The notes under the pieces are model-generated. The model was not told the origin of the DNA. It was given only the letters and a program-made list of their open reading frames with translations, and searched no databases. From Nonlabens marinus S1-08 (GTDB lineage Bacteria > Bacteroidota > Bacteroidia > Flavobacteriales > Flavobacteriaceae), in NCBI RefSeq assembly GCF_000831385.1, contig NZ_AP014548.1, positions 558,001 to 622,000 on the forward strand: a stretch of DNA of 64,000 nucleotides. Reading direction: 5' to 3'. Positions 1,519 through 60,126 of this stretch are shown here, piece after piece. A program made the translations under genes and the position numbers. Position 1 is the first letter of the stretch; each line of letters begins with the position of its first letter.

Positions 1519-3140
1519 GAGACCTGATAGAAAAACACCCATACTGGACCATCCTTATTTTATGGGGATGCGTTTTTCTAGCGCATCTAGGCGTTCTTTA
1601 TCCTAATATTATGGAAGCCCGCAATTTCATCACGGCTCGAGAAATGCTGACGGAGGGCAACTGGATATTGACCACCATGGACGGCTTGCCACGTTATGAA
1701 AAACCACCTTTACCTACTTGGCTTACTGCGTTTTCCGGAGCCCTTTTCGGTTTCAAAAGTCTTGCAGGGTTGCGACTTCCTGCAGCGTTCATAACACTTG
1801 TACTGTTGTTTGTGATGTATGCGCTTTCGCGAAAGCTGACTCACAACAAAACCTATGCACTTGTGACGACCTTAGTGCTAGGTACCTCATTTTACATCAT
1901 TTTTGCTGGCCGAAACGGCACATGGGACATATTTGCGCATAGTTTTATGCTGTTAGGAATTTACTTTCTGTTCCAGTTTTTTGAAACATCATGGCAGCTC
2001 TATACGAACTCTTTATTGGCAGGACTATTCATCGGTTTGTCCTTTATGAGTAAAGGTCCAGTGTCACATTATGCCTTGCTATTGCCATTTCTGATCGCAT
2101 ATGGCGTCATCTATCGCTTTGCAGATTTTAGAAAAAAATGGGTGCCACTCGCTCTTATGATTTTAATAATCACCATCCTTTCTGCCTGGTGGGGTTATTA
2201 TATTTATCTCTTTGACGCAGACGACGCGACCCGAATCGCAGAGAAAGAATCAGGTCGATGGATCGATTATGAAACCAAACCATTCTATTATTACTGGAGT
2301 TTTTTCACTCAATCAGGCATCTGGACCATTCCAGGCTTCATTTGTTTGCTGTACCCTTATTTGAAATCGCGGGTCTCTAATTTAAAGGCATATCAGTTTG
2401 TTCTATTATGGACACTTGCTTCTTTGTTACTTCTTTCCATCATTCCTACTAAAAAATCTAGGTATTTACTGCCCGTATTGATTCCGCTAGCCATGACTAT
2501 AGGTTTCTATATGGAATATTTATTCTTGTACTTTAAAACAACAACAAGGCGGTGGGAGACCTGGCCAGTCTATTTTAATTATGGATTGATTGCCACTATC
2601 GGGATCGCGTTTCCAATAGGAGCTTTTTTATATCTAGGACCCCAGTTGGAGGGACATTATGTGTCCTATATTCTCACCTCAATTGCGCTGGTCTGTGTAG
2701 GAGTCTTTTTATTTATACAACTTAGAAAAAAGAACTTTGCCAAAGTCTTTTACGGTACCATCTCCTTTATATTATTCACTGTAGCTCTAGGCTTCCCGTT
2801 AGCGAACGCATTATTGGGAAACCCTGAATATGAAACCTTTTCCGAACTTAAAAAATCCAGCCTACCGATCTTGACCTTAGACAATCTGACGCCAGAACTC
2901 GTGTGGGAATATGGAGAAATCACTAAGCACACCAGCATGAGTGAATTGCGTCAACAACAGCAGTTGGACTCGATTATGGTATTAACTACTTTTGAAAAAG
3001 ACAAAACCCGTCTGGATTCATTGAGGTCTGATTATAGTGTAGAATGGAAGGGCACCGTAGACCTCAACCCTTTAGACAGCACTAGAAGTTCTTACAAAGA
3101 CCGATTAAAAAGCGATTATTATTTGTTATCAAGGAATTAA
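1515..3140 (+). CDS. ArnT-like/GT-C family 39 glycosyltransferase, probable lipid A sugar transferase
   Basis: This 541-residue polytopic membrane protein begins with a short cytoplasmic segment and a membrane helix, followed by the periplasmic loop motif EARNFITAREM (34-44) and RYEKPPLPTW (60-69). That loop is typical of ArnT and PMT-type transferases, where acidic residues bind the metal and lipid phosphate. About ten further hydrophobic segments follow, then a soluble C-terminal domain from about residue 440. The family transfers a sugar from undecaprenyl phosphate to lipid A or to proteins in the periplasm. It is the last gene of an operon with a GT2 enzyme and a LAB_N protein, which favours lipid A. 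One palindrome copy (core at 1823) lies inside it and encodes ALSRKL. Confidence 0.85.
   Translation: MRDLIEKHPYWTILILWGCVFLAHLGVLYPNIMEARNFITAREMLTEGNWILTTMDGLPRYEKPPLPTWLTAFSGALFGFKSLAGLRLPAAFITLVLLFVMYALSRKLTHNKTYALVTTLVLGTSFYIIFAGRNGTWDIFAHSFMLLGIYFLFQFFETSWQLYTNSLLAGLFIGLSFMSKGPVSHYALLLPFLIAYGVIYRFADFRKKWVPLALMILIITILSAWWGYYIYLFDADDATRIAEKESGRWIDYETKPFYYYWSFFTQSGIWTIPGFICLLYPYLKSRVSNLKAYQFVLLWTLASLLLLSIIPTKKSRYLLPVLIPLAMTIGFYMEYLFLYFKTTTRRWETWPVYFNYGLIATIGIAFPIGAFLYLGPQLEGHYVSYILTSIALVCVGVFLFIQLRKKNFAKVFYGTISFILFTVALGFPLANALLGNPEYETFSELKKSSLPILTLDNLTPELVWEYGEITKHTSMSELRQQQQLDSIMVLTTFEKDKTRLDSLRSDYSVEWKGTVDLNPLDSTRSSYKDRLKSDYYLLSRN
1823..1836. repeat. Interspersed palindrome copy 1 (core GCTTTCGCGAAAGC)
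   Basis: Perfect 14-base palindrome inside the ArnT-like gene; it is read as LSRK in that frame. The flanks break the longer 20-base form on the right side (TGAC instead of GAA). Confidence 0.9.
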
Positions 3141-6418: not shown

Positions 6419-7492
6419 TCATTCTGTCACCTCCCCACGCAAGGATTTTTCAAAATAATGCTTGAAGTCAGCAAGTGTTGTGGTGTAATTCAATAAGTAC
6501 ATCATTTTGGCCAGCGCAGTTTCCGTGGTCATGTCTTTACCAGACACCATCCCAATAGCTTTAAGCTGTACACTGGTTTCATATTTCCCCATGTCCACAG
6601 CACCTCCACGGCATTGGGTCACGTTTACAATATAAACGCCTTTATCAAGAGTTCTTTTCATCGCATCGACAAACCATTGCTCACTAGGGGCGTTCCCGCT
6701 GCCATAGGTTTCCAGTACGATGCCTTTCAATTCAGGAATATTACAAATCGCATTGACCACCTCAGGGGTTATTCCAGGAAACAGTTTGAGAATGACGACA
6801 TCATTGACAAAATCAGGGCGGTAAAACATCTTGTACTCATCTTCAGGAAGCTGTGGTTGGTTCGCTTTCGCGAAAGCGAACTCATCAAAAGTTCCCTGCC
6901 ATAAAAGATTCTGATCAATATTGAGATGTACCCCACTTATCGCTAGCGGCGGATAGTTAGGTGACATAAATGCTTCAAAATGATCTGCACTCACCTTAGC
7001 TGTCCGGTTTGCGCGATACAACTGATATTCAAAATAAATGCAAACTTCTCTAATGATAGGCCTACCGTTTTGAATCTGGGATGCCAGCTGTATGGTGGTA
7101 ATTAAATTTTCCTTAGCATCTGTTCTTAAGTCGCCTATAGGCAGCTGTGAGCCTGTTAGAATAATAGGCTTAGTCAAGTTCTCAAACATAAAGCTCAAGG
7201 CACTGCCGGTGTACGCCATAGTATCACTACCATGCAAGACAACAAAGCCATCAAAATCATCATAGCGCTCATGAATCATCTCTCCCAGCCGCTGCCAGCT
7301 TTTCAAGTTCATGTTAGAGGAATCTATGGGATGAGTATATGAGATTGTACTGATCTCGCAGTCCAGTTGTCGCAACTCTGGTATATGCAGGAGGAGTTCT
7401 TCAAAGTTAAATGATTTAAGAGCCCAGGTTTCTGGATCCTTCATCATCCCAATCGTACCGCCAGTATATATAAGAAGAATTCTAGGCTTCAT
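6419..7492 (-). CDS. ansA: Type I (cytoplasmic) L-asparaginase
   Basis: The 357-residue protein converts asparagine to aspartate and ammonia. It carries both halves of the asparaginase active site: IYTGGTIGMM near residues 8-17, where the first Thr is the nucleophile, and VLHGSDTMAYTGSALSFM (about 84-101) with the second Thr-Asp pair. TGSQLPI follows. There is no signal peptide, which fits the cytoplasmic AnsA type. I chose the ATG at 7492 over an upstream TTG at 7498; it overlaps the end of the acyltransferase gene by 11 bases, so the two are translated from one message. A palindrome copy (6861-6880) lies inside and encodes FAFAKAN in a non-catalytic region. Confidence 0.9.
   Translation of the reverse strand: MKPRILLIYTGGTIGMMKDPETWALKSFNFEELLLHIPELRQLDCEISTISYTHPIDSSNMNLKSWQRLGEMIHERYDDFDGFVVLHGSDTMAYTGSALSFMFENLTKPIILTGSQLPIGDLRTDAKENLITTIQLASQIQNGRPIIREVCIYFEYQLYRANRTAKVSADHFEAFMSPNYPPLAISGVHLNIDQNLLWQGTFDEFAFAKANQPQLPEDEYKMFYRPDFVNDVVILKLFPGITPEVVNAICNIPELKGIVLETYGSGNAPSEQWFVDAMKRTLDKGVYIVNVTQCRGGAVDMGKYETSVQLKAIGMVSGKDMTTETALAKMMYLLNYTTTLADFKHYFEKSLRGEVTE
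6861..6880. repeat. Interspersed palindrome copy 2 (full 20 bases)
   Basis: Perfect 20-base form TTCGCTTTCGCGAAAGCGAA, inside ansA; flanking G and C extend the symmetry to 22 bases. It is read as FAFAKA in the asparaginase frame. Confidence 0.9.
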
Positions 7493-9507: not shown

Positions 9508-9527
9508 TTCGCTTTCGCGAAAGCGAA
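9508..9527. repeat. Interspersed palindrome copy 3 (full 20 bases), intergenic
   Basis: Perfect 20-base form in the 129-base gap between the divergent tatD and aspartyl protease genes, 27 bases before the protease start. Confidence 0.9.
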
Positions 9528-9553: not shown

Positions 9554-9994
9554 ATGGCATCGATTAAAAAGATTTTAAAGGAACAAGGTTACATTGCACA
9601 CCGCATACGCATTGCTAAAAAGAGCAGCCATATCGTTACCAAAGCACAACTTAACGGTCATCCTGGTAGGTTCATTATTGATACCGGTGCGAGTGCTACT
9701 TGTGTAGATCAAGCGCTTTACAAGGAATTTCAATTGACTACGGAGTTTATGGAGAAACAAATAGGTACAGCCAGCGGCTCCTTACGGCCACGAGTTTCTT
9801 ATAAAAATACACTAGAATTGGGTGACTGGAGCGATGAAGATGTGACCTTACTTTCTATGGACATGAGCTTTGTCAACAGTGCTTTGAAAGCAGAGGGTAT
9901 GCGATCTGTTCAAGGATTACTAGGTGCCGATTTTCTAATCGCAAGCGCCGCCATTATTGATTACCGCAGTAAATGGTTGTTTTTGAAATTATAG
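9554..9994 (+). CDS. Retropepsin-like aspartyl protease (clan AA)
   Basis: This 146-residue protein has one aspartyl protease motif, FIIDTGASATCVD, with the catalytic D-T-G at 43-45, and a second conserved piece VQGLLGADFLIASAAIIDYRSKWLFL at the C terminus, as in bacterial retropepsin-like proteins. With only one DTG motif it should work as a homodimer. There is no signal peptide or membrane segment, unlike some periplasmic relatives. The substrate is unknown. The last 6 bases overlap the convergent lipoprotein gene. The palindrome at 9508 lies just upstream. Confidence 0.85.
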   Translation: MASIKKILKEQGYIAHRIRIAKKSSHIVTKAQLNGHPGRFIIDTGASATCVDQALYKEFQLTTEFMEKQIGTASGSLRPRVSYKNTLELGDWSDEDVTLLSMDMSFVNSALKAEGMRSVQGLLGADFLIASAAIIDYRSKWLFLKL

Positions 9995-11993: not shown

Positions 11994-12728
11994 ATGAGCA
12001 CCTTTAAGTTCAAGCAATTTGAAGTCGCTCAAGATCAATGTGCTCAAAAGATAGGCACTGACGCTGTCTTGTTAGGCGCATGGACTGATACAGTTGAACA
12101 GCCGCTGTCTATACTTGATATAGGCACAGGCACTGGAGTTATCGCACTTATAATGGCACAACGCTTTTCCAGAGCTCAAGTGGACGCTATTGAAATCGAT
12201 GATGCTGCTTTTGAACAAACCACTTCAAATTTTGAGAACAGTCCTTATGGCGATAGGCTTTACTGTTATCACGCTTCATTTCAAGAGTTTTATGAAGAGG
12301 TAGAAGAACGCTATGATCTCATCATTTCAAACCCTCCATTTTTTGATGGAAAGTTAAACCGCAATGATGCGATGATAGATGTAAAACGTCAACAAGCACG
12401 TTTTGATGATGCGTTGCCGTTTGAAGAATTGGTTTATGGCGTTTACAAACTCTTGGAAACTAGCGGTACTTTCGCCTGCATCATTCCATCAGATCGGGAA
12501 GAGGAATTCTTGAAAATCACCAGCCACTTTCAATTTGTCGCCACTCGCAAGACCTATGTGCGTGGTACAGATGCCAGTGCCGCGAAAAGAGTTTTGTTAG
12601 AATTTCGCTTTCGCGAAAGCGTAACAACCACCGAACCCTCCACCTCGCATTTGACCATTGAAAAGTCAAGACACATCTATACCGAAGACTACATTGATCT
12701 GGTTAAAGATTTCTATTTGAAAATGTAG
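11994..12728 (+). CDS. trmN6: tRNA1(Val) (adenine-37-N6)-methyltransferase-like SAM enzyme
   Basis: This 244-residue Rossmann methyltransferase has SAM motif I, ILDIGTGTGVIALIMAQR (about 37-54), the acidic motif II (VDAIEIDDAAFEQ), and the catalytic N6-adenine motif IISNPPFF (about 110-117). The N-terminal segment FKFKQFEVAQDQCAQKIGTDAVLLGAW is characteristic of the TrmN6/YfiC family that methylates A37 of tRNA1(Val). It lies 11 bases after rimM, so translation genes are grouped. A palindrome copy (12604-12621) lies near the C terminus and encodes RFRES. Confidence 0.85.
   Translation: MSTFKFKQFEVAQDQCAQKIGTDAVLLGAWTDTVEQPLSILDIGTGTGVIALIMAQRFSRAQVDAIEIDDAAFEQTTSNFENSPYGDRLYCYHASFQEFYEEVEERYDLIISNPPFFDGKLNRNDAMIDVKRQQARFDDALPFEELVYGVYKLLETSGTFACIIPSDREEEFLKITSHFQFVATRKTYVRGTDASAAKRVLLEFRFRESVTTTEPSTSHLTIEKSRHIYTEDYIDLVKDFYLKM
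12604..12621. repeat. Interspersed palindrome copy 4
   Basis: Eighteen bases of the repeat (TTCGCTTTCGCGAAAGCG), followed by TAA instead of AA; inside the trmN6-like gene, read as RFRES. Confidence 0.9.
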
Positions 12729-14087: not shown

Positions 14088-14116
14088 AGGGCTGATTGTT
14101 AGTGACAATCAGCCCT
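14088..14116 (+). terminator. Hairpin after gcdH, probable terminator, overlapping a promoter
   Basis: AGGGCTGATTGT (14088-14099) pairs perfectly with ACAATCAGCCCT (14105-14116) around a 5-base loop, and TACTTTTG follows. It begins 43 bases past the gcdH stop. The same bases hold the -33 and spacer of a candidate promoter for the next gene. Confidence 0.75.
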
Positions 14117-14134: not shown

Positions 14135-14899
14135 ATGCAAGCGCAGTTGAATGAGAGAATATCGCTTTCGCGAAAGCGATTACTACAACATCCTCTTTAC
14201 AAATCTATAGAGACCACCGCTCACTTACAGACTTTTATGCAATCCCATATCTATGCGGTCTGGGATTTTATGTCGTTACTCAAAGCGCTCCAGCAGCAAC
14301 TGACCTGTACCATCTTACCCTGGCAACCGGTAGGCAACCCACAATTGCGATACCTTATTAACGAAATAGTATTAGCCGAAGAAACTGACGAAATAGGAGA
14401 AGGACAGCGCATGAGTCATTATGAAATGTATCTCGACGCAATGCAGGCAGCAGGAATTGAAACGTCTGAGCTAGAGTCTCAAATTAGCAGCTGGAAAAGT
14501 GTTTCTCAAGTATTGAACCTCACCCAAGGCTCTGAGTTACCGGAACATATTAGCCAATTTTTAAACACCACGTTTAGCGTCATCCAGCGTGGAAAATCTC
14601 ACGAGATTGCTGCAGCATTTACCTATGGTCGCGAGGATTTGATCCCAGAAATGTTTACGGAAATCATTGGAGGTTTGGAAGGCTCAGGAGTGGATATTGA
14701 CTTGTCAAAAATAAAATATTATTTTGACCGTCATATTGAACTTGACGGCGATGAACATGGCCCTATGGCCCATCAAATGGTTGCCCTGCTGTGCGGCGAT
14801 GATCCAGTAAAATGGAATGAAGTAATTACTGTAAGCCAGCAGGCTTTAGAAAGTCGTTACCAACTTTTTGATGGAATCTTAAAGGAAATAAAATCTTAA
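14135..14899 (+). CDS. DUF3050 protein (heme-oxygenase-like fold)
   Basis: This 254-residue protein matches DUF3050: HPLYKSIETTAHLQTFMQSHIYAVWDFMSLLKALQQQLTC near the start, LINEIVLAEETDEIG...SHYEMYLDAMQAAGI in the middle, and YYFDRHIELDGDEHGPMAHQM near the C terminus. Conserved His and Glu residues on helices resemble the TenA/heme-oxygenase-like metal-binding fold, which includes di-iron enzymes, but the reaction is unknown. The frame is open upstream to a TTG at 14096, which lies inside the terminator hairpin and promoter, so I took the ATG at 14135. A palindrome copy (14161-14180) sits at residues 9-15 and encodes SLSRKR. Confidence 0.85.
   Translation: MQAQLNERISLSRKRLLQHPLYKSIETTAHLQTFMQSHIYAVWDFMSLLKALQQQLTCTILPWQPVGNPQLRYLINEIVLAEETDEIGEGQRMSHYEMYLDAMQAAGIETSELESQISSWKSVSQVLNLTQGSELPEHISQFLNTTFSVIQRGKSHEIAAAFTYGREDLIPEMFTEIIGGLEGSGVDIDLSKIKYYFDRHIELDGDEHGPMAHQMVALLCGDDPVKWNEVITVSQQALESRYQLFDGILKEIKS
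14161..14180. repeat. Interspersed palindrome copy 5
   Basis: ATCGCTTTCGCGAAAGCGAT, a perfect 20-base palindrome with A/T at the outer positions; at the N terminus of the DUF3050 gene, read as SLSRKR. Confidence 0.9.
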
Positions 14900-17990: not shown

Positions 17991-19388
17991 TTAAAATCTC
18001 TCATTGATCCAGCTAGAAATGATGTCCAGCGTTGCAGGGTCAAAGGTTTCCTCGATCGTTGCATATTCACTGCCACTGCCGGTAATCGCATTTTGGAACA
18101 AATGGTTCAAACCTGGTCGTATTGTTATGGTGACGTCTGAGTTGTTCGCTTTCGCGAAAGCGGACTTCATACCAGGCAAATTAATTTCAGGAATCACTTG
18201 ATAATCCAAAGATCCATTGAGCGCCAAAACAGGACAACTTACTTTCTCTAAATAAGGAGTTGGGTCGTAGGAAACAAAATATCGAAACCACGTATCGCTG
18301 AATTGAGAGGCTACTATTTGCGCATATTCAGACGTGTATTTAGATCCTAAATTCTCAGGTGCCGCATCTGCTTTAGTTTCAATGATCTCTAGAATAGCAT
18401 CTTTAACCTCTTGATTGCTAGAGTCAGGAGTGTTTTTAATTTTTTCTAAGATCGCTTCCATAATCTCCATTTCGAGAGCCACAGCTTCTGGACTGGCTCC
18501 TTGAAACTCTACAGATTTTTGCATTTGTGGCAGCAACACATCAGTACCAGAAACTCCTGGTCCTGCAAGAGAGACGAAAAAGGCAATATCCTTAGGATTA
18601 GCGGCAATAACTATAGGCGCAATTAATCCGCCTTCACTGTGACCTATCAAACCTATTTTTTCAGGATCGATGTCATTGCGCGTTTTCAAAAAAGCTACCG
18701 CAGCCTCAACATCAGTAGCAAAATCTAAACTTGTAGCGTTGGCTTGTGTGCCTTCAGATTGCGCCACGCCGCGATCATCATATCTCAATACAGCAATCCC
18801 TTTCTTAGCGAGATGATCTGCAATGACAAGAAAAGGCTTGTGAAAAAAGAGTTGCTCATCCCGATCCTGAGGGCCCGAACCAGAAATCATGATCGCCACT
18901 GGGGGATTCTCAACATCAGCAGGCATGGTTAAAGTCCCGGCGAGTTTGATATTTCCAGCTTTAGGGTTTTCAAAAACTACATCTTCTACTTTATATGGAA
19001 AAGGTGCTTTGGGTTCTTGGGGTCTATCGGGCACAACTTCTTCATATGCTTTCTTTTCTAGAGTCATGGGTGCAGATCCAGGCCCTTGGGTGAAGGTTCC
19101 TTCAATTTTGCCATCTTTCAACTCTCCTACATATTTAATCTTATAGGCATCGAAAATTATAGTGATGAGTCCATCTTCAACCGTAGCACTGTCCATTTCG
19201 AAAAAGTTTTTAGACTGTTTCGGACTTTGCATTTTAGCGCTATAGCCATCTCCTAAGGGTGTAATTTCAAAAATAAGCGGCATGCCTTGAATGGAGCCCG
19301 TCCATGACCCTTCAAAAGCTTGTGCATGATTAAGGCATGAGAAAAAAAGGATGACCAGCCATAATGCGATGTTGAGTGTAGTTTTCAT
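17991..19388 (-). CDS. Secreted alpha/beta hydrolase (esterase or S9-like peptidase)
   Basis: This 465-residue protein has a Sec signal peptide (1-24, ending HAQA) and an N-terminal beta domain of about 100 residues (FEGSWTGSIQGMPLIFEITPLGDGYSAKMQSP). The alpha/beta hydrolase domain follows: VAIMISGSGPQDRDE for the oxyanion region, the nucleophile Ser251 in IGLIGHSEGGL, the likely Asp in LALNGSLDYQV and the His in PGLNHLFQNA. It acts outside the cytoplasm on an unknown ester or amide. The gene is probably transcribed alone. A palindrome copy (18145-18164) near the C terminus encodes AFAKAN. Confidence 0.88.
   Translation of the reverse strand: MKTTLNIALWLVILFFSCLNHAQAFEGSWTGSIQGMPLIFEITPLGDGYSAKMQSPKQSKNFFEMDSATVEDGLITIIFDAYKIKYVGELKDGKIEGTFTQGPGSAPMTLEKKAYEEVVPDRPQEPKAPFPYKVEDVVFENPKAGNIKLAGTLTMPADVENPPVAIMISGSGPQDRDEQLFFHKPFLVIADHLAKKGIAVLRYDDRGVAQSEGTQANATSLDFATDVEAAVAFLKTRNDIDPEKIGLIGHSEGGLIAPIVIAANPKDIAFFVSLAGPGVSGTDVLLPQMQKSVEFQGASPEAVALEMEIMEAILEKIKNTPDSSNQEVKDAILEIIETKADAAPENLGSKYTSEYAQIVASQFSDTWFRYFVSYDPTPYLEKVSCPVLALNGSLDYQVIPEINLPGMKSAFAKANNSDVTITIRPGLNHLFQNAITGSGSEYATIEETFDPATLDIISSWINERF
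18145..18164. repeat. Interspersed palindrome copy 6
   Basis: TTCGCTTTCGCGAAAGCGGA: one change from the full 20-base form. Inside the secreted hydrolase gene, read as AFAKA. Confidence 0.9.
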
Positions 19389-24044: not shown

Positions 24045-24064
24045 TCCGCTTTCGCGAAAGCGAA
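24045..24064. repeat. Interspersed palindrome copy 7, intergenic
   Basis: TCCGCTTTCGCGAAAGCGAA, 13 bases after the stop of the patatin-Omp85 gene. Confidence 0.9.
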
Positions 24065-28098: not shown

Positions 28099-29067
28099 AT
28101 GTCGGACCAGATATCCCCTGAAATCGCGGAACGTATCCATTTGCTAGAAAAGAAGTTTAAAAACTCTGGGCAGGACATGCTTTCTTATCTTGATGGGCTG
28201 CTCTACGACCAGTACATAACTTACTGGGACTACATACGTCTTGACACCTTATTAAGCCTTCAAGTACCATCCACGTCTTTTCCTGACGAGATGATTTTTA
28301 TAGGCTACCATCAGATTACAGAGCTTTATTTCAAATTGGTCATTCACGAGCAAATGCAGATCATAGAGCAAGAGCATTTGACCGGCACTTACTTTTTAGA
28401 GAAAATTCGACGCATCAACAGGTACTTCAATGTGATGATCAACAGCTTTGAGGTTATGATTAAAGGAATGGAGCGCGAGCAGTTTCTTAAATTCCGCATG
28501 TCTTTGCTGCCTGCTAGTGGCTTTCAAAGTGCGCAGTTCCGTATGATAGAGTTTTATTCGACAGACATGTTGAATCTTGTTCATTATGAGGAGCGAGCAC
28601 GCTTTCGCGAAAGCGAAAAAACCAACAACATCCCAACACTTTTTGAAAATATCTACTGGAAACGTGGTGGGATTGACAAAGCAACTGGAGAAAAAACGCT
28701 TACACTAAAGCAATTTGAGAAGCGTTATACTCCTAGATTTTTAAGAATCGCAGAGCAAGTGAAGCATACTAATATTTATCAACGATACCTTTCCCTACCA
28801 CCGGAAGAACAAATCCCGGAATTGAAGGAAGAACTACGCAACATGGATTTGAGCGTAAATGTGAATTGGTTATTGATGCATATGGGAGCAGCTCACCGCT
28901 ATTTACGTAAAGAAGGTGGCGCTGTTAAAGCCACTGGAGGCACCAACTGGAAAGAATTTTTACCACCTAGTTTTCAAAAGATTTCATTTTTCCCAAGTTT
29001 ATGGACTGATCAAGAACATGATGAATGGGGAAAACAATGGGTGGATCACTTATTTAATACAAAATAA
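28099..29067 (+). CDS. Tryptophan 2,3-dioxygenase family protein
   Basis: This 322-residue heme enzyme family oxidises L-tryptophan to N-formylkynurenine, the first step of the kynurenine path. The family core is clear: YDQYITYWDYIRLDTLLSLQ (about 35-54), EMIFIGYHQITELYFKLVIHEQMQII (about 62-87), then FRMSLLPASGFQSAQFRMIE, where Arg and Ser bind the substrate, and LLMHMGAAHRYLRKEGGAVKATGGTNW with the substrate carboxylate contact near the C terminus. It is somewhat longer than the bacterial type (about 280). It is the first gene of an operon with an M23 peptidase and pgi. A palindrome (28599-28617) encodes RFRESE inside the variable middle. Confidence 0.9.
   Translation: MSDQISPEIAERIHLLEKKFKNSGQDMLSYLDGLLYDQYITYWDYIRLDTLLSLQVPSTSFPDEMIFIGYHQITELYFKLVIHEQMQIIEQEHLTGTYFLEKIRRINRYFNVMINSFEVMIKGMEREQFLKFRMSLLPASGFQSAQFRMIEFYSTDMLNLVHYEERARFRESEKTNNIPTLFENIYWKRGGIDKATGEKTLTLKQFEKRYTPRFLRIAEQVKHTNIYQRYLSLPPEEQIPELKEELRNMDLSVNVNWLLMHMGAAHRYLRKEGGAVKATGGTNWKEFLPPSFQKISFFPSLWTDQEHDEWGKQWVDHLFNTK
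28599..28617. repeat. Interspersed palindrome copy 8
   Basis: ACGCTTTCGCGAAAGCGAA; inside the tryptophan dioxygenase gene, read as ARFRESE. Confidence 0.9.
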
Positions 29068-35878: not shown

Positions 35879-35898
35879 TTCGCTTTCGCGAAAGCGAA
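35879..35898. repeat. Interspersed palindrome copy 10 (full 20 bases), intergenic
   Basis: Perfect 20-base form in the gap between two convergent genes, 16 bases after the stop at 35863 and 31 bases before the mfd stop. Confidence 0.9.
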
Positions 35899-35928: not shown

Positions 35929-38900
35929 TTAAGTTGTTGCCGTAGTAGCTTGCTGCAATGGCATCACGGAATTCAAATGCTCAAATGCTTTATCAATAGA
36001 TTTGATATGATCCATTTTGAGTAACAAGCGCATTCCACTTCTGGTTTGTTTTTGTTTCATTTGCATCTTACTGTCGCGATGACTCATGGATTGAATCAAT
36101 TGACCAAACGTATCACTCTTGTAGAATCTGTGTTCTTGATCTGCAATGAAGTAACCAACAAATTGGCCTTGCTTCATAATAATCTTTTCTAGTCCCATAC
36201 GGCTAGCAATCCACTTGACCTTGATACTAGTCAAGAGATCTTCCGCAGGATCTGGTAGCTCACCAAAACGGTCCAATAGCTCCTTACGGAACACCTCTAG
36301 TCCCGTTTCATTCTCAACATCATTCAGCTTTGAATACAATGCGAGTCGCTCTGTAACGCTGTTAATATAATCATCTGGGAATAACAGTTCAAAGTCTGTA
36401 TCTATGGTTACATCGCTCACGTGCTTCTTGTTGGGCTGATCAGTGGTAGGGTACAAATCTTTAAATTCGTTTTCCTTTAACTCTTCTATCGCCTCACTTA
36501 AAATCTTTTGGTAGGTATCAAAGCCGATCTCGTTGATAAAACCACTCTGCTCTCCACCCAGAATATCTCCTGCACCACGTATCTCTAAATCCTTCATCGC
36601 GATGTTGAAACCGCTACCCAACTCTGAGAAACTTTCTACCGCTTGAATGCGCTTGCGGGCATCGTCCGTCATCATATCGTATGGCGGCGTGATGAAATAG
36701 CAAAAGGCTTTCTTGTTGCTTCGACCCACACGACCGCGCATCTGGTGCAAATCAGACAGTCCAAAGTTATTTGCATTATTGATGAAAATGGTATTTGCAT
36801 TAGGAACATCCAATCCACTTTCAATAATCGTAGTACTAATCAATACATCAAACTCGCCGTTCATAAAAGCGAGCATGATGGATTCTAGTTTCTTCCCGTC
36901 CATTTGACCATGACCTATACCTATTTTGGCATCTGGCACTGATCGCTGAATCATACCTGCGACTTCCTTGATATTTTCAATGCGATTGTGCACAAAGAAT
37001 ACCTGGCCACCACGTGAAATCTCATAACTCACTGCATCCCTGATGGTTTCTTCTGAAAAACGAACCACGTGAGTTTCTATGGGGTGCCTGTTGGGTGGTG
37101 GTGTCTTGATAACACTTAAATCACGAGCCGCCATCAATGAGAACTGTAAAGTTCTGGGTATAGGTGTCGCTGTGAGGGTAAGCGTATCTATATTTTCTTT
37201 GAGTGTCTTTAACTTGTCCTTGACAGCCACACCAAATTTTTGCTCCTCATCAATAATGAGCAACCCAATATCCTTAAACTTAACAGATTTGCTCACCAGT
37301 TGATGCGTACCGATGACGATGTCAATAGACCCATTTGCTAGACCTTCTAAAACTTCTTTACGCTCTTTAGCGGTGCGGAATCGATTCAAATAGTCGACCC
37401 TCACCGGCATATCTGCAAGACGTTCCCTAAATGTTTTTGCATGTTGGAATGCTAGAATGGTCGTAGGTACTAGAACAGCGACCTGTTTACCATTGACCGC
37501 GGCCTTAAAGGCTGCTCGAATGGCAACTTCTGTCTTTCCAAAACCTACATCACCACACACCAATCGATCCATAGGGCGCTCGCTTTCCATGTCATTTTTG
37601 ACATCTTGGGTCGCGGTACTTTGATCTGGCGTGTCTTCATAAATAAAGCTCGCCTCTAATTCGTTTTGAAGGTAACCGTCAGGTTCATATTGATAGCCTT
37701 TATTTGCCCTGCGTTTTGCGTATAGCTTGATCAGGTCAAAAGCGATTTGCTTAACTCTAGTTTTGGTCTTCGCTTTTAATTTTTTCCAGGCAGGACTTCC
37801 TAACTTATATATCTTAGGAACTTTTCCATCCTTAGCGGCGTATCTGGTGATTTTGTGTAACGAGTGAATCGATACGTACAAAATATCTCGCTCCCCATAA
37901 AAAAGTTTGATGGCCTCCTGCATCTTGCCATTGACATCAATCTTTTGTAGCCCGCCAAATTTCCCGATACCGTGATCAATATGAGTTACATAATCACCAA
38001 TCTCGAGAGTGTTGAGTTCCTTTAAAGTAATCGCTTGCTTTTTAGCATAGCCATTTTTCAAATGGAACTTGTGGTAGCGGTCAAATATCTCATGATCTGT
38101 ATAGCAAGCGATACGCAAGTCGTGATCAATAAATCCTTGATATAAAGTCATGATCACCGTTTCATAAGAAACATTAGCGCCCATATCATCAAAAATGTCC
38201 TTAAAACGTTTAGCCTGTTGTGCTGAACTACAAAATAGGATGGTTTTATATCCATCATCCTCGTTTTGTTTAAGGTTATCAATGAGTAATTCAAACTGCT
38301 TATTAAAAGAAGGCTGCGGTGCGGTGCGGTACACCACATCAGCATTACTTCCTGAAAACTCTACCGTATTAAAATCTGGTAGCTGACTTTTTAATAAATC
38401 AGACGTGCAAAAAATATCTTGAGGTTCCAGTTGCTTGATCTCACCTTGCAGATTCTTGTAGGCTATTTCCGCTTTCGCGAAAAGCGAATCCATCTTACCA
38501 TACAGCATGTCCAGGTTTTGCGCAAAAACCACTGTTTTTGAAGATAGATATTTGAAGAAGCTCTCCCGCCGCTCATCGGAATGCTTGTTCTCTACATTTG
38601 GAATGATGCTTATTTTTTTGATCTTGTCTTGCGAGAGTTGCGATTCTACATCAAAAACTCTAATAGAATCAATCTCGTTACCAAAAAACTCTATCCGGTA
38701 AGGCTCATCATTTGAAAATGAGAACACATCTAAAATACCGCCGCGCAAAGAAAACTCTCCTGGCTCTGTTACAAAATCAACCCGTTTAAAAGCGTATTCA
38801 AACAATACTTCATTAGCAAAGTCGATGGAGATCTGGTCTCCTACAGCTATTTTCAATGTGTTTTTCTCCAGCTCTTTACGAGTAACCACTTTCTCAAATA

Positions 38901-40722: not shown

Positions 40723-41543
40723 GCTTTAGAAGCACGCCATTGTTTAAATTTGAGCATCGGATTGGTAGCTCTGTTTTGATATCCATGTATGCAGACATTG
40801 ACAAAAATGACTGCAGCACAGCCTAGTGCTAAATAAGAAATATCATTCATGGTTCCTGAATGTCTCACATAAATAGCAACCAGCGCCCATATGGCGACAC
40901 TCGCATATTCACGCATGTTTCGATACCACACCATCATTAAGTTGATTACAGTGGCTACGACAATTAAAGCTAAAGTGGCTAATATTTGTTGGTTTTCTGG
41001 GATATCAAACATGCCATTAAGGTAGCTGGCAACGTTTGCGATTATAGCCACACTTATCCAACCTGTATAAAGGCATAAGGGCCACCATACAAAAGCAATT
41101 ATAGGAAGTGGGGCGTCCCATATTTCCATATCAAGTTGCTTGACACAAATCAATAAACTTACTAAAATACCTATCATACAAAGCACCGAAGCCCCTATCA
41201 TTTCTTCCAACCATAAGGCAACCCAAATGGTGCAAAAAATATTAGCCAGTAAGAAATAAGGAAAAGTAGTTATGATAAAGTTGGTTCGATAACCACGAGG
41301 TTGAAGGGATTTCGCTTTCGCGAAAGCGATATAAACTCCATAAATTCCAAAAGCTAAAAGCATCAGAAATATCAACCCCCATATAGAGAATGCATAACTC
41401 GCTGGAGTAAACAAATTGTTGTACTCTGCACTCAAGTCGCCTACTGTTTTACCCTTAAAATTACCGGTATTTGCATAGCCATTCCAAGCAATTAAAACAA
41501 TAATAATAAGCAAGTTGAGAGCACTGATGAGTTTTTTGTACAT
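40719..41543 (-). CDS. TspO/MBR-like tryptophan-rich membrane protein
   Basis: This 274-residue protein has about eight membrane segments and is rich in Trp and Tyr. It has the TspO-like pattern LFTPASYAFSIWGLIFLMLLAFGIYGVYIAF (about 46-76) near the N terminus, with AFVWWPLCLYTGWISVAIIANVASYL (about 150-175) later. Related proteins are annotated as TspO/MBR-type; ligand and role are unknown. Its stop and that of the flavoprotein share the TTAA at 40719-40722. An upstream TATATTTA resembles a -7 box, but pdeM is only 34 bases away, so it may be cotranscribed. A palindrome copy (41311-41330) encodes IAFAKAK. Confidence 0.8.
   Translation of the reverse strand: MYKKLISALNLLIIIVLIAWNGYANTGNFKGKTVGDLSAEYNNLFTPASYAFSIWGLIFLMLLAFGIYGVYIAFAKAKSLQPRGYRTNFIITTFPYFLLANIFCTIWVALWLEEMIGASVLCMIGILVSLLICVKQLDMEIWDAPLPIIAFVWWPLCLYTGWISVAIIANVASYLNGMFDIPENQQILATLALIVVATVINLMMVWYRNMREYASVAIWALVAIYVRHSGTMNDISYLALGCAAVIFVNVCIHGYQNRATNPMLKFKQWRASKA
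41311..41330. repeat. Interspersed palindrome copy 12
   Basis: TTCGCTTTCGCGAAAGCGAT; inside the TspO-like gene, read as IAFAKAK in a loop after a membrane helix. Confidence 0.9.
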
Positions 41544-42225: not shown

Positions 42226-44637
42226 TTAAAAAGTATAATTGAGAGCCATAATGAGGTTGCGACCGGCTGCTGCAATTCCAGACGAGTAGGTACGGTACCG
42301 TTGATCTGTTATATTTTCTAGGGTAGCGATAGCACTTAAACTATTGGTAAATTGATACTGCGTTCGCAAATTGAGAGTATACCAGGAAGGAGAATATGGG
42401 TTCCCGTTAGCGTCTGATGCATACAAGTAATCCCGATCCTGCTGCTCTGGAGCTAGCTCATCAAAATCAAACTGGCCATTGAAAATTGTATAGGCATCTA
42501 CTTTCCATTTATTCTGATCATAAACAAGATGTGCATCGCCGAAGGCAGGTGCAACATGACGCACTGCCACCTCGCTCCCGTCTTCTTCTTCCTGCACCCC
42601 ATCTAGCCAGGTATAATGCCCGTACAAACGCCATTGATCAGACCACTGATAGTCCACTCCTAATTCAAACCCGTAAATTTCAGAACGTTCTGAATTTTGT
42701 ATGGCTTGTACTTGACTCAACTCTCCCTGGTATAAAACTTCATCTTGACCATTTAGTTGAAAATCTCTAGCGACTAACGCATCTTTTAAAATGGTAAAAT
42801 ACCCGGCACCATCGATCGTCAGTCGTTCAGTCACACGTTTTTTTACTCCTACCTCTGTATTATAAGAGTATTCAGACTCTAAGTCTGGATTAGGCACGAC
42901 CACTGTTCCTGGGCTAGGATCGAATATTTTCCCTATGTCATCGATATTAGGAGCGCGGAATGCAGTACTTAAATTCGCTCGCAATTCCCAGCTAGGATCT
43001 GGTAAATAGGTAGCTCCAATTGCTCCGGTTAAAGCGCCTGTTCGTACGGTAGCTTCTTCAAACGGGAACTCGAAAAATTGATCATCAAAATCTGCATCAA
43101 TCCAGATGTAATTATATCGCGCTCCTGTTTGCAGGGTAAGGTTACTTTTAATTTTCCATTGGTAACTGGCATAAGCAGCCATGGATTGCCAGGTGGAACC
43201 GTCTGGGTATCGGGTAGGTGCCTCTCGCTCCTCTCCAGTTTCAATGTTGCGTACGCTGCCATCAGAAGTTACCTTATTGTGCAAGTACTCCAGTCCGTAA
43301 AAAAGGGCGTTATTTTCCCGATCGCGACGTTCAAAATCTATGGCCGTACTTAAAGCATCCACTCGTTCATCGTTTTCAAACAAGTCTGTAGATCTGAAAT
43401 TTCTAGTATTGCGACCTTCATCAAACTTTTGGTACGCTTGGGTAATTATCATTTTATCGTACCATTTCCCGTCGCCTCGATGCTGGGCTTTTGCATTCAC
43501 CATCAACCACTTTTGTGGTCCATAATACCACTCAGAATTTCTGGGGTTTCCGCTTTCGCGAAAGCGAGTTAACGCATCATACCTGCTAAAATCTGATGTC
43601 GCGGTGTAAATAAGCCCTAAATCAAACCTCCATGAAAGACTGGGTCGGTAGCTAAATTTTTGCAACAAATTAAGTTGATCGAAGCCCGTAGGTACTTGCA
43701 CCTCTGGATCTGGATTATCGATGACTATGTCCTGATTATCACGCCTGATGGTATAGCGATTTCTCAAATAATCATCAGGGCCATGCGAACCCATTTTCAA
43801 ATCACCGAAGTTATTTATGCTAATGCTGGTAGCACTTGCAAATTTATCTGTACTGTAATTGAAATCGAGGTGGGCCGTTTTTTCATCATTTGCGGTAGCA
43901 TACCGTAGCAAACTATTACCACTTAATTCTGTCGTTTTTGTAGATGTAAATTTAGGCGTTTGAGTGAAGAAGTTCATCACACCGCCTATGGCATCACTTC
44001 CATACACCACACTGCCTGGTCCTAGAATAACCTCAGTACGCTCAACGCTCAACGGGTCAATGGATATTACATTTTGCAGATTGCCACCACGAAAAATGGC
44101 CGTGTTCATACGGACGCCATCTACAGTGATCAACAACCGATTGGTCGAAAACCCTCTTATCAAAGGGCTACCGCCACCTTGTTGGGATTTTTGAATGTAA
44201 ACCTGGCCAGTTTGCTGTAATAAATCAGCACTGGTTTGAGGGTTTTGGAAAACGATTTCCTCTTTACTGGTGCTGATGATGGATTGCGGGATATCCTGTT
44301 TGCGCTGTTCAAATTTAGAAACCGAAACAACCACAGGGTTCATCTCTTCAGATTTAGGCGGTAACTGTACTTTAAAATTTGATTCTTCTATTTCTTCTTT
44401 TGTAGCTCTATAAGTTACATAGGCAACGTCTTGAAAATAGATAAGCTCATAAAAATCAAATGCACTTATATCAGCATATCCATTAATGTCTGTATAGGTA
44501 GATTTTTGTTTCTTCTTATTATAGATAGCTACAGCGCCTACTGGCTCACCCGTTAATTGATCAACAACTTGTATTTTTTGCGCAAAAAGAGTGCTGGTCA
44601 TGAATAATCCAGCAAGTAGTAGAAGGTAAATTTTCAC
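42226..44637 (-). CDS. TonB-dependent outer-membrane receptor
   Basis: This 803-residue receptor has a signal peptide (1-19, LFAQ), a short carboxypeptidase-like beta domain (IQVVDQLTGEPVGAVAIYNKKKQKSTYTDINGYADISAF, about 21-60), a plug (TSADLLQQTGQVYIQKSQQGGGSPLIRGFSTNRLLITVDGVRMNTAIFRGGNLQNVISIDPLSVERTEVILGPGSVVYGSDAIGGVMNF), and a 22-strand barrel with the closing terminal strand LIMALNYTF. The plug resembles siderophore, heme and vitamin receptors. It overlaps recO by 4 bases. A palindrome (43549-43568) in the barrel encodes RFRESG. Ligand unknown. Confidence 0.88.
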   Translation of the reverse strand: MKIYLLLLAGLFMTSTLFAQKIQVVDQLTGEPVGAVAIYNKKKQKSTYTDINGYADISAFDFYELIYFQDVAYVTYRATKEEIEESNFKVQLPPKSEEMNPVVVSVSKFEQRKQDIPQSIISTSKEEIVFQNPQTSADLLQQTGQVYIQKSQQGGGSPLIRGFSTNRLLITVDGVRMNTAIFRGGNLQNVISIDPLSVERTEVILGPGSVVYGSDAIGGVMNFFTQTPKFTSTKTTELSGNSLLRYATANDEKTAHLDFNYSTDKFASATSISINNFGDLKMGSHGPDDYLRNRYTIRRDNQDIVIDNPDPEVQVPTGFDQLNLLQKFSYRPSLSWRFDLGLIYTATSDFSRYDALTRFRESGNPRNSEWYYGPQKWLMVNAKAQHRGDGKWYDKMIITQAYQKFDEGRNTRNFRSTDLFENDERVDALSTAIDFERRDRENNALFYGLEYLHNKVTSDGSVRNIETGEEREAPTRYPDGSTWQSMAAYASYQWKIKSNLTLQTGARYNYIWIDADFDDQFFEFPFEEATVRTGALTGAIGATYLPDPSWELRANLSTAFRAPNIDDIGKIFDPSPGTVVVPNPDLESEYSYNTEVGVKKRVTERLTIDGAGYFTILKDALVARDFQLNGQDEVLYQGELSQVQAIQNSERSEIYGFELGVDYQWSDQWRLYGHYTWLDGVQEEEDGSEVAVRHVAPAFGDAHLVYDQNKWKVDAYTIFNGQFDFDELAPEQQDRDYLYASDANGNPYSPSWYTLNLRTQYQFTNSLSAIATLENITDQRYRTYSSGIAAAGRNLIMALNYTF
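43549..43568. repeat. Interspersed palindrome copy 13
   Basis: TCCGCTTTCGCGAAAGCGAG-type sequence with a perfect core at 43552-43565; inside the TonB receptor, read as RFRES. Confidence 0.9.
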
Positions 44638-47745: not shown

Positions 47746-47765
47746 TTCGCTTTCGCGAAAGCGAA
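47746..47765. repeat. Interspersed palindrome copy 14 (full 20 bases), intergenic
   Basis: Perfect 20-base form, 26 bases past the gdhA stop and just upstream of the gdhA terminator on the minus strand. Confidence 0.9.
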
Positions 47766-50135: not shown

Positions 50136-50155
50136 TTCGCTTTCGCGAAAGCGAA
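50136..50155. repeat. Interspersed palindrome copy 15 (full 20 bases), intergenic
   Basis: Perfect 20-base form that begins at the base after the stop codon at 50135. Confidence 0.9.
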
Positions 50156-54630: not shown

Positions 54631-54650
54631 TACGCTTTCGCGAAAGCGAA
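54631..54650. repeat. Interspersed palindrome copy 16, intergenic
   Basis: TACGCTTTCGCGAAAGCGAA; 6 bases after the stop (on the minus strand) of the MATE gene and about 40 bases upstream of the thioesterase promoter. Confidence 0.9.
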
Positions 54651-57258: not shown

Positions 57259-57278
57259 ATCGCTTTCGCGAAAGCGAA
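57259..57278. repeat. Interspersed palindrome copy 17, intergenic
   Basis: ATCGCTTTCGCGAAAGCGAA in the gap between divergent hemH and the zinc-ribbon gene, upstream of both. Confidence 0.9.
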
Positions 57279-57759: not shown

Positions 57760-60126
57760 ATGAGACCTAAATCACACGTAACCTCAGCTTTATCATTTTT
57801 ACTGCTTATGGCGCTAGTGTGGTATGCTTTCTCTTCTCAAACGCCTAGTGGCACCGTCGATAAAAATGTTCCTGAAAATCAATGGTCCACCGCCAGAGCA
57901 TTAGCCCATGTCAAAGCTCTCTCGACCGCACCGCATTACCTAGGGAGTGAAGCACACGAGCAAAATAGAAATTACATCAAACGGGAGCTGGAGAAAATAG
58001 GTCTCAAAACTGAAGTCCAAACAGGTTTCACCGTCGACGAATACGGCAACCTGTCCCGCCCTGTAAATATTATGGCGCGTGTGGAAGGAACTGCAGGAAC
58101 AGACGATGCACTGGTATTGATGAGCCATTACGACAGTGATCCACACTCCGCATTAGGTGCCAGTGATGCGGCGTCTGGTGTAGCCACAATCCTGGAAGGC
58201 ATCCGAGCTTATTTAAAAGACGATCAACCTGAAAACGATGTCATTATTCTCATCACTGATGGCGAAGAATTAGGGCTAAATGGTGCGGATCTTTTTGTAA
58301 GCGAGCACCGCTGGGCAAAAGATGTACGGATCGCGTTGAACTTTGAGGCACGTGGTAGCGGCGGTCCTAGCTATATGTTATTAGAAACCAATGGCGGAAA
58401 TCGCAAAATCATCAAAGTTTTTAAGGAAGCGGGTGTTGACTATCCCGTAGCCCACTCCCTAGCTTACAGCATCTATAAAAAATTACCCAACGATACAGAT
58501 TTGACCGTTTTTAGAGAAAAAGGAAATATCAACGGGCTCAATTTTGCTTTTATAGGCGATCACATTGATTACCACACACAACTGGACAATTATGAAAATC
58601 TAGACCGCAATACCCTTGCTCATCAAGGCAGTTATTTGATGCCATTACTTTCCTATCTCGCTACAGCTGATTTGAGTGACGGTTTAAAAGTAGAAGCAGG
58701 CATGGACGACATTTACTTTCCCATGCCCATTTTAGGGTTGGTGAATTTCCCGTTCACCTGGATGCCTTTTCTAATCATCATCAGCGGGATACTATTTATA
58801 GGTTTAATTTTTTACGGAGTACGTAAAAAAAGAGTGTCGATAGCGCAATTGTTCTTAGGTTTTGTTCCTTTATTTGGAAGTCTGATTCTAGGTTTTTTAA
58901 TTCCTAAATACACTTGGGAAGTTCTAAAAACAACTGATTTTTACATTGAGCAACCTTCAGTTTTTCCTGCTACGGGATATTTGTGGGTTGCAGCGGCAGC
59001 CTTTTTTGGGATCGCTGTTTCCTTTTATTTATATCACTTAGTGTTTAAAAAAGACAGGGTGGCAAGCCATATGGTTGCGCCACTGGTCTTGTTATGGATC
59101 ATCTGCTTGTTGGTCGCGTTTCCAGTGGGAGACTCTGGATTAATACCTGCGGCTTATTTACCTGGCGCTGGCTATTTTACCGTACCACTGTTTGCAGGAT
59201 TAATCATGTTATGGTTGCACTTGTTTAGAAAACGAGTCAGCTACATCGTCATGTTGGTATTTTCAGTTCCTGCTATTTTTATTTTCGCACCATTTGTGGT
59301 GGCATTTCCCGTTGCGTTGGGAATGGGAATCCTATTTGTTGCAGCCATTCTCAGTTCATTCCTTTTCAGTTTGCTATTGCCTGTTCTAGGACATTACCGC
59401 AGGAAAGATGTTTTGGCCGTGATCTCTCTTGTAGCGACGGTAATATTTGTTTGTGCCGCTTTCGCGAAAGCGGAATTCACCACCACCCAACCACAAAAAA
59501 CAAGCTTGGTCTATTTTCAAGATGTAGATGAACAAACCGCACAATGGGCCACCTATGATAGAAATTTGAGCGATTGGACGAAAGAGAAACTGGGCAGCGA
59601 TCCCACAGGTCCAGACGATACAACTAACGTTATAGATTCTAAGTATGGAGGGCGATTCACCTATGTAAAAGAAGCGTCGCTCATGAAGCTCCCGGCGCTG
59701 GAACATCAAATAACGGTAGACACCACCGTTGAAGGAAAACGTACCATCAAGCTATTACTGCGCAGTGACCGCAATGTGGAACGCTGGGAGGTATTTAGTA
59801 AGAATGAATTTCAATTTACAAACGCCGTGCTCAATGGCAAACAGGTTCCCGTAAATGAGCAAGGAATTCCATTTGCAAAGCGCTATGGCAACCGGATTGC
59901 TTCTTATTATGTTTCAAATCGATCACCGCTTGTGATGGAATTGACTTTTGACGCATCGCGGTCTCCTGAATTTGACGTGTACGCTGCAAGTTTTGATTTA
60001 CTAGATCAACCCGATTTTCAAGTGGCTCCAAGACCTGAGAATACCATGCCCATGCCTTTTGTATTGAACGACGCTGTAGTGGTGAAAAAGCATATTACGA
60101 CTAACTCTAAAAATAGAGATGAATAA
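57760..60126 (+). CDS. M28-family metallopeptidase with multi-pass membrane domain
   Basis: This 788-residue protein has one N-terminal membrane segment (SALSFLLLMALVWYAFSS) and an M28 zinc-peptidase domain (about 45-310): LMSHYDSDPHSALGASDAASGVATILE with His and Asp ligands, ITDGEELGLNGADLF with the Glu pair, FEARGSGGPSYML, and GDHIDYHTQLDNYENL with the final His. About seven membrane helices follow (about 325-570), then a soluble C-terminal domain. This is the Fxna/ERMP1-like architecture in the inner membrane, with the peptidase outside. A palindrome (59455-59475) sits at the end of the last helix and encodes AFAKAE. It overlaps the SDR gene by 8 bases. Confidence 0.88.
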   Translation: MRPKSHVTSALSFLLLMALVWYAFSSQTPSGTVDKNVPENQWSTARALAHVKALSTAPHYLGSEAHEQNRNYIKRELEKIGLKTEVQTGFTVDEYGNLSRPVNIMARVEGTAGTDDALVLMSHYDSDPHSALGASDAASGVATILEGIRAYLKDDQPENDVIILITDGEELGLNGADLFVSEHRWAKDVRIALNFEARGSGGPSYMLLETNGGNRKIIKVFKEAGVDYPVAHSLAYSIYKKLPNDTDLTVFREKGNINGLNFAFIGDHIDYHTQLDNYENLDRNTLAHQGSYLMPLLSYLATADLSDGLKVEAGMDDIYFPMPILGLVNFPFTWMPFLIIISGILFIGLIFYGVRKKRVSIAQLFLGFVPLFGSLILGFLIPKYTWEVLKTTDFYIEQPSVFPATGYLWVAAAAFFGIAVSFYLYHLVFKKDRVASHMVAPLVLLWIICLLVAFPVGDSGLIPAAYLPGAGYFTVPLFAGLIMLWLHLFRKRVSYIVMLVFSVPAIFIFAPFVVAFPVALGMGILFVAAILSSFLFSLLLPVLGHYRRKDVLAVISLVATVIFVCAAFAKAEFTTTQPQKTSLVYFQDVDEQTAQWATYDRNLSDWTKEKLGSDPTGPDDTTNVIDSKYGGRFTYVKEASLMKLPALEHQITVDTTVEGKRTIKLLLRSDRNVERWEVFSKNEFQFTNAVLNGKQVPVNEQGIPFAKRYGNRIASYYVSNRSPLVMELTFDASRSPEFDVYAASFDLLDQPDFQVAPRPENTMPMPFVLNDAVVVKKHITTNSKNRDE
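59455..59475. repeat. Interspersed palindrome copy 18
   Basis: GCCGCTTTCGCGAAAGCGGAA; a 16-base perfect palindrome extended by a CC/GG pair; inside the M28 peptidase gene, read as AFAKAE. Confidence 0.9.

Follow-up and report, generated by a model that had tools for sequence, protein, structure and literature searches.

A lineage-specific iterated palindrome of Nonlabens and two further flavobacterial genera that may act like a DNA uptake sequence

A palindrome iterated throughout the chromosome

The stretch of DNA analyzed here, 64,000 nucleotides from the chromosome of Nonlabens marinus S1-08 (NZ_AP014548.1, positions 558,001 to 622,000; hereafter the window), contains 17 exact copies of the 14-base palindrome GCTTTCGCGAAAGC and one copy with an extra base. 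Our work suggests that this word is a lineage-specific iterated palindrome that behaves like an uptake sequence, and it leaves room for something categorically new. Beyond the view provided by the window alone, we describe a 16-bp core, strand-asymmetric flanks, an even spacing, other genera that are loaded with the word, and independent positions of the copies in these genera.

The single chromosome of 2,915,920 bp carries 728 exact copies, and a control word with the reversed pattern is absent. A sample of 464 kb of this genome (G000), comprising 21 stretches with the window included, was studied in detail: It holds 111 exact copies, ten copies with one mismatch and six with two mismatches (one of the six being the copy with the extra A), and Markov models of orders 1 to 6 with the motif masked predict at most about 0.01 exact copies. 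A preliminary description of this DNA had proposed to count the word in the full genome and in related genomes and to compare the count with a Markov expectation; both reveal a clear excess. It had also named the lack of a genome-wide excess and a restriction to the window as outcomes that count against a chromosome-wide site, and neither of them occurred. Its 18 coordinates are all correct, 17 of them belonging to exact 14-mers and the one at 38471 to the copy with one extra A, but its mention of many 20-base palindromes was too generous: just five copies in the window have the full 20-base form, whereas 16 have CGCTTTCGCGAAAGCG. If up to two mismatches are allowed, no additional copies appear in the window (0.22 expected from 100 dinucleotide shuffles, with a maximum of two).

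Architecture of the site and its flanks

The fuller form of the site is the 16-bp word CGCTTTCGCGAAAGCG, which is present in 98 of the 111 sampled copies. Six of the ten one-mismatch copies share a single half-site change, GCTTCCGCGAAAGC in either reading direction. Position -4 of the site is T or G, position -3 is T, and C is almost excluded at position -5, with the mirrored preferences on the other side. A weaker base preference reaches to about 24 bp, and beyond this distance only a signal of composition is left: On each strand, C is scarce and G and T are abundant over about 30 nucleotides 5' of the site, both for noncoding and for coding sites. On this 5' side, the C content is 6-7% at positions -10 to -6, 8-11% at -20 to -11, 11-16% at -30 to -21, and 18-19% at -40 to -31. 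The same bias is found in Nonlabens relatives and in G227, a genome of the genus g206, and it is weak in G211, the genome that represents the genus g190 (26 half-flanks). A comparison of the left and the right flank over positions 6 to 25 yields 623 matches vs 654 between different sites (standard deviation 21); position 2 alone covaries between the two sides (z 3.2). Since positions 6 to 25 do not covary, the flank is a property of each half of the site rather than part of a longer hairpin. A DNA hairpin is possible as such (-8.0 kcal/mol for a 22-mer), and for the bare 14-mer the stability does not exceed that of its shuffled versions.

In the manner of HIP1, an orphan methyltransferase together with mismatch repair might have produced the palindrome as a by-product around a methylated core; here, the possible modification would concern TTCGCGAA. 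No iterated palindrome is better known than HIP1, its occurrence tracks methyltransferases, and some genomes carry other highly iterated words in its place (PMC4390886). However, an exact word of 14 to 16 bp with directional flanks of 30 nucleotides is far longer than the site of a methyltransferase. Moreover, outside the motif neither TCGCGA (55 observed vs 65 expected from base composition) nor CGCG (520 vs 718) is in excess, an observation that is indecisive since CGATCG behaves in the same way once HIP1 has been removed (PMC4390886). We thus regard a methylation-driven origin as very unlikely.

Phylogenetic distribution

All 23 Nonlabens genomes that were searched are loaded with the site (288 to 857 exact copies each, control 0). 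A first draw from the Flavobacteriaceae, 149 genomes of 148 genera searched for the exact 14-mer, included two Nonlabens genomes, both loaded; 29 of the 147 others had 1 to 17 copies and 118 had none. A second draw of 397 genomes from 237 genera was searched for the 10-base core, and high numbers were found in four of four Nonlabens genomes (595 to 774), in G211 (559) and in G227 (1107), with 0 to 34 in all others. As exact 14-mers, G227 has 857 copies and G211 has 408. Thus, among the 237 sampled genera only two besides Nonlabens are loaded: g206, with 18 of 18 genomes and 369 to 905 copies, and g190, with its single genome. We take g206 to be Dokdonia, and the genomes G165 and G108 are presumably from Leeuwenhoekiella and Croceibacter, respectively. 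The copy number does not track genome size: 899 copies are present in a genome of 3.3 Mb, 903 in one of 5.5 Mb, and 570 in one of 4.3 Mb. G211 has fewer sites, a weaker flank and a weaker preference at positions -1/+1 than Nonlabens or g206, as if its set of sites were younger or decaying.

Twenty loci with copies outside the loaded genera (L029-L048) were read, and several of these copies occupy identical codons in different genera. By our reading of their translations, the genes in question resemble those for TolC, CusA-type efflux proteins, Fur-like proteins, and P-type ATPases. The sequences suggest that the stray copies came with site-bearing genes from a loaded donor, and the site may tag gene transfer out of the loaded genera, as apparent metal-efflux genes elsewhere carry copies. 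In several site-bearing genes (L030-L043), AFAKA stands at the apparent end of a signal peptide (VSAFAKAQ; read by eye), which seems to be a place where a site costs little. A repeated word of their own was not found for other genera: 17 non-Nonlabens loci of 14.6 to 23.3 kb, a small sample, gave only A/T-rich words with 3-5 copies (10- and 12-base palindromes and 11-mers).

Two phylogenies indicate that the loaded genomes do not form one lineage. In a tree of Mfd from 60 genomes, built with a quick method, Nonlabens is apart from the other loaded genera, and two changes of the loaded label are required, forced by the branches starred in that tree; G211 joins g206 with 90% SH-aLRT support, and the unloaded G165 comes next. 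The tree of AddB (40 rows) requires two changes as well, with 0% of 200 bootstrap trees needing just one, and here G211 joins G165 and its congener G349 (99/97) and not g206. By these protein sequences the loaded genomes fall into at least two lineages, and only Mfd places G211 as the sister of g206.

The positions of the sites in these genes differ between the groups. In AddA, three of eight Nonlabens genomes have a common site near residues 660-680, and five of five g206 genomes have another one at 829-854. In AddB, a site at 187-198 is common to four of eight Nonlabens genomes, and G211 has three different ones. For Mfd, 23 of the 60 rows were compared: the 10-base core in one loop is common to g206 (three genomes) and G211, as the exact 14-mer in three of these four, and all five Nonlabens genomes have their own variant in the segment encoding LFAKAE. 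Contrary to this trend, the g206 genome G428 has the 10-base core, but not the 14-mer, at the Nonlabens column. LFAKAE is also encoded by the mfd genes of G164 and G063, neither of which has the site at this place. The Mfd loop of the g206 and g190 rows is up to five residues longer than in the other rows, which makes it conceivable that small insertions may also create sites. In a comparison of coding sites across groups (8 and 10 comparable ones), a single pair coincided, in a HisD-like gene. The occurrence of the identical word at mostly different places is most simply caused by a recognizer common to the loaded groups, and the different positions in separate clades point to a trans factor rather than to inherited sites. 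Thus, the sequences indicate at least two colonizations and so, probably, a common trans-acting recognizer.

Placement along the chromosome

With simple calling of open reading frames (ORFs) in the 464-kb sample, 51 of the 111 copies are located in the 10.2% of the DNA that is noncoding, corresponding to a 7.5-fold higher density per base than in coding DNA, and the other 60 are inside ORFs. Ten sites were found in 6.7 kb between convergent genes, 13 in 9.0 kb between divergent genes, and, somewhat more sparsely, 25 in 27.9 kb between co-directional genes; three are at the ends of stretches. Every one of the twenty sampled 20-kb stretches holds copies. The spacing is even: 5 of 90 gaps between sites are shorter than 1.5 kb vs 32 expected (at least 19 in each of 2000 draws that kept the coding and noncoding counts), with a coefficient of variation of 0.52 vs 0.95. 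For the first 100 sites, this coefficient is 0.61 in G000 and 0.68 in G211, both below all of 5000 random sets, and 0.74 in G416, which is low yet inside the random range. Within the first 100 sites of G000, the widest gap measures 15.9 kb and corresponds to a ribosomal protein operon: ten of the 15 larger ORFs in it were scanned, and all ten encode ribosomal proteins, SecY or RpoA. At about 853-855 kb of G000 (L014) there are two neighboring parS-like sites of the canonical type, which perhaps mark the origin region.

An abundant dimeric protein that binds a palindrome every 3-4 kb might bridge or loop the chromosome, and Noc, MatP and SlmA act in such a way at rarer sites. It is the palindrome that fits a role in nucleoid or chromosome structure best: It is long, fully specified and has no spacer. 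The spread over the whole chromosome with 2-9 copies per 20-kb stretch, the even spacing, and the conservation of the sites at the DNA level (see below) are in agreement with this role. On the other hand, the sites are exact with rare near-matches, while those of nucleoid proteins are usually degenerate, and the copy number does not scale with genome size. A second, Noc-like ParB protein is excluded as the general explanation: one strong ParB hit was found in each of 58 genomes, and a weak second hit turned up in just 2 of the 19 loaded genomes and in 9 of the 39 others. Taken together, a chromosome-structure site seems unlikely, though it deserves to be kept in mind.

Conservation of individual sites

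The copies in the window are listed by position, strand, form and location:

1823..1836, strand., exact 14-mer, within ORF 1515-3140
6864..6877, strand., exact, full 20-base form, within ORF 6419-7498
9511..9524, strand., exact, full 20-base form, between the divergent ORFs 8654-9424 (-) and 9554-9994 (+)
12607..12620, strand., exact, within ORF 11994-12728
14164..14177, strand., exact, near the start of ORF 14096-14899
18148..18161, strand., exact, within ORF 17991-19388 (alpha/beta hydrolase)
24048..24061, strand., exact, intergenic; 10-base core retained by 5 of the 6 relatives that align
28601..28614, strand., exact, within ORF 28099-29067; identical in 9 of 10 relatives
31519..31532, strand., exact, within ORF 30316-31953; identical in 8 of 10 relatives
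35882..35895, strand., exact, full 20-base form, between the convergent ORFs 35429-35863 (+) and 35929-39333 (-)
38471..38485, strand., one extra A (GCTTTCGCGAAAAGC), in mfd; variant kept in 8 of 9 alignable relatives
41314..41327, strand., exact, within ORF 40719-41543
43552..43565, strand., exact, within ORF 42226-44637 (TonB-dependent receptor)
47749..47762, strand., exact, full 20-base form, intergenic; 10-base core retained by 6 of the 8 relatives that align
50139..50152, strand., exact, full 20-base form, intergenic; core in 4 of 6 alignable relatives, flanks align poorly
54634..54647, strand., exact, intergenic
57262..57275, strand., exact, intergenic, with divergent ORFs on both sides
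59458..59471, strand., exact, within ORF 57760-60126 (peptidase M28)

The ORF 14096-14899 starts with TTG, and the site at 14164 is perhaps upstream of the true start. For five coding sites and ten relatives, 40 of 50 comparisons gave a codon window that was ungapped by construction (the other ten were not counted), and 28 of the 40 windows are identical over all 14 bases. Where the five encoded residues are conserved, 28 of 31 windows are identical, as compared to 408 of 6224 overlapping control windows (6.6%) from the same genes. Among the noncoding sites, the cores at 24048, 47749 and 50139 persist in part amid sequence that does not align, and those at 35882 and 54634 were alignable in none of the relatives compared. 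These sequence comparisons suggest that the site is either kept at the DNA level or repeatedly restored. The retention of the extra-A variant in mfd may mean that one asymmetric spacing is tolerated or that the protein holds the variant in place. In relatives that lack a site, no gap of 14 bases was seen in the coding alignments: two relatives in which the site at 43552 is unrecognizable align without any gap, and three relatives align at 41314 with gaps of 1-3 bases. This agrees with the preliminary description, which had proposed a chromosome-wide site and not an insertion element, as do the genome- and genus-wide occurrence, the location of 60 of the 111 copies in ORFs, and the conservation of positions between species. 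It is through such position and conservation data that we addressed its third possible refutation, namely that each copy belongs to a mobile element.

The same comparisons bear on the possibility that the copies are terminators or mobile elements, REP-like or of another type, or that they reflect a coincidence among the encoded peptides AFAKA, LSRK and FRES. The potential for a hairpin would suit a terminator or a mobile element, the Mfd loop of g206 and g190 leaves space for a small insertion, and some places, such as a HisB-like ORF, naturally favor AFAKA. However, the sites reach about the same density between divergent genes and between convergent ones, the flanks do not extend the hairpin, the region of 43552 in the two site-less relatives is gap-free, and nearly half of the copies encode no peptide at all, while G164 and G063 have the peptide in Mfd and lack the site. 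Sequence conservation that stops at about 24 bp and the many copies within ORFs led us to reject a REP or insertion element, and the whole group of explanations is highly improbable. The idea that close pairs of sites serve the autoregulation of the recognizer was also abandoned: the 270-bp pair in L011 is located in a HisB-like ORF, as read from the sequence.

Phages and the flanking strand bias

A scan of viral contigs detected the 16-mer in 41 stretches and a 17-mer in 19. Several copies are present in clear phages with genes for tape measure, capsid, portal, terminase or sheath proteins, for example three copies in 14 kb of L211; in L201, L211, L218 and L221, some copies are at the same positions in related contigs. 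Single copies in GC-rich viral contigs may be due to chance or to other hosts. The flank bias of the phage copies looks weak upon inspection. The Nonlabens phages P12024S and P12024L, which we take to be lytic, have no site in 35.7 kb each, and none was found in a Winogradskyella phage and a Cellulophaga phage. P12024S and P12024L encode ERF and YqaJ-type recombinases.

It is tempting to consider that the site acts like Chi in both directions: a resecting helicase-nuclease would switch at the palindrome when arriving from either side, and the C-poor, G/T-rich strand 5' of the palindrome would become the 3' tail for the loading of RecA. The strand-asymmetric flanks fit this possibility best, since the G/T-rich flank is on exactly the strand and side of the RecA tail, for both directions and in coding as well as noncoding DNA, with the same orientation in the relatives and in G227. 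Chi itself is found within G/T-rich islands for which RecA has a preference, and the density of the sites is near that of Chi in E. coli. It also suits a Chi-like function that phages with their own recombinases, P12024S and P12024L, are free of sites while some other phages carry them. In contrast, the known Chi sites are 5-8 nucleotides long, oriented, and not palindromic, and an AddB-like protein is present in 41 of 41 genomes, whether loaded or not. The AddB tree is vertical, with its two changes for the loaded rows and no bootstrap tree with one, and the columns of AddA and AddB common to the loaded groups do not outnumber those common to other pairs of clades; a swap of AddAB between the clades is thus unsupported. 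Upstream of the DYK motif, the nuclease domain of AddA reads IPDR rather than RPDR in nine of nine loaded genomes and in one of 24 others (G134), counted for genomes with an AddA ORF of at least 1040 amino acids in the fetched region (L330-L369). This change of R to I does not go beyond what other pairs of clades have in common. On balance, a Chi-like site is unlikely, slightly more so than a chromosome-structure site.

An uptake-like system as the preferred explanation

A system similar to those that recognize DNA uptake sequences seems to us the best explanation of the palindrome, and we put it forward tentatively. The palindrome would be recognized by a sequence-specific DNA-binding factor that is symmetric and probably a homodimer, and that few flavobacterial lineages possess. 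This factor would favor site-bearing DNA when environmental DNA enters the cell, and homologous recombination would then copy the site-bearing alleles into the population. Sites would build up singly wherever a gene or a spacer tolerates one, until there is about one site per uptake-length fragment (3-4 kb). The C-poor, G/T-rich 5' flank would be an extended footprint, or it would reflect a strand preference in entry or in RecA loading. The trans-acting factor, its dimeric nature, and the spread by biased recombination are inferred, and the following features speak for the explanation: (i) All 23 Nonlabens and all 18 g206 genomes searched have hundreds of copies, and their number does not track genome size. 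(ii) Noncoding DNA is enriched in sites whatever the orientation of the genes, the ribosomal operon is empty, and the spacing is even. (iii) The sites are conserved at the DNA level (28 of 31), and the Nonlabens phages P12024S and P12024L are site-free. Established uptake sequences offer parallels: in Haemophilus the coding share amounts to 65%, in Neisseria to 35% (PMC1939737), and here it is 60 of 111. Uptake sequences occur less often than expected in rRNA genes, in coding DNA under constraint and in segments acquired recently, and a "relatively even distribution" is the expected outcome of uptake drive (PMC7811141).

Several points weigh against this explanation. The uptake sequences known so far are non-palindromic (PMC1939737), whereas the present word is a perfect palindrome; a non-palindromic core is typical of the known uptake sequences, not defining for the kind. 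No competence gene, pilus or receptor came to light: brief signature patterns for ComEC, DprA, ComEA and a secretion ATPase, applied without a positive control, found no match in the partial DNA of loaded genomes (about 18% for N. marinus). Near-matches are few, ten one-mismatch copies vs 111 exact ones, and uptake drive predicts a graded excess; for kingDUS, allowing one mismatch adds just 21% (PMC3630211). The presence of several sites in some phages with capsid and portal genes is not obviously explained by uptake, and strand-asymmetric flanks are not predicted by it. Finally, Karlin, as cited in PMC1939737, interpreted even spacing as pointing to replication, repair or compaction. Three readings survive: an uptake signal, a chromosome-structure site, and a palindromic Chi-like site. 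Among the analogies drawn in the preliminary description, HIP1, uptake sequences and nucleoid sites, the uptake sequences fit most features.

We can go one step further and suggest, with even more reserve, that a recognizer of a palindromic self-DNA signal, either passed between flavobacterial lineages or retained by a few of them, has rewritten the chromosome at least twice, each time with several hundred copies of one 16-bp site with inverted G/T-rich flanks. If true, this would be a palindromic uptake or recombination signal system in the Bacteroidota for which we found no precedent, together with natural replicates of its invasion. In the searches made, the titles and abstracts of openly licensed papers contained no description of the word or of a palindromic repeat in Nonlabens or Dokdonia, and the 14-mer is in none of the openly licensed paper texts searched, whereas the 10-base core does occur in papers. 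Were the site an uptake signal, a DNA receptor would be reshaping genomes in another phylum, and the drive model could be tested on independent replicates, for which dozens of sequenced species are available. Were it a chromosomal or recombination site, its very sharp definition and even spacing would help to study how marine flavobacteria organize their chromosomes or repair breaks. In both cases, the site can serve as a precise bait to find the protein that recognizes it.

Comparison with known systems

The sites of Noc, parS, matS and the SlmA sites are palindromes read by dimeric chromosomal proteins, as the present word may be. They occur in tens of copies or fewer. Noc sites and parS have TTTC...GAAA arms in common; here, GAAA is one base closer to the dyad, and the loaded genomes have no general second ParB. 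With the Chi sites of RecBCD and AddAB, the word shares the G/T-rich strand 5' of the site; unlike them, it is palindromic, and AddAB has no joint signature in the loaded genomes. HIP1 of cyanobacteria (GCGATCGC) is likewise a highly iterated, lineage-specific palindrome with an unsettled function, but it has 8 bp and is linked to GATC and CGATCG methyltransferases (PMC4390886), whereas the sequence here is GCTTTCGCGAAAGC, of 14-16 bp and with long directional flanks.

The closest likeness is to the uptake sequences of the Neisseriaceae (DUS) and the Pasteurellaceae (USS), to which we compare the palindrome, known here from sequence alone, and do not assign it as a member. According to PMC1939737, PMC7811141 and PMC3630211, these are near-exact words with hundreds to thousands of copies throughout the genome, and they share with the palindrome the noncoding bias, the even spacing, the avoidance of constrained genes, the restriction to lineages, and flanks beyond the core. 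The palindrome differs from them by its perfect symmetry, the core of 14-16 bp, the symmetric flanks of 30 nucleotides, the density of about one site per 4 kb, its occurrence in the Bacteroidota, and the presence of the same word in separate clades.

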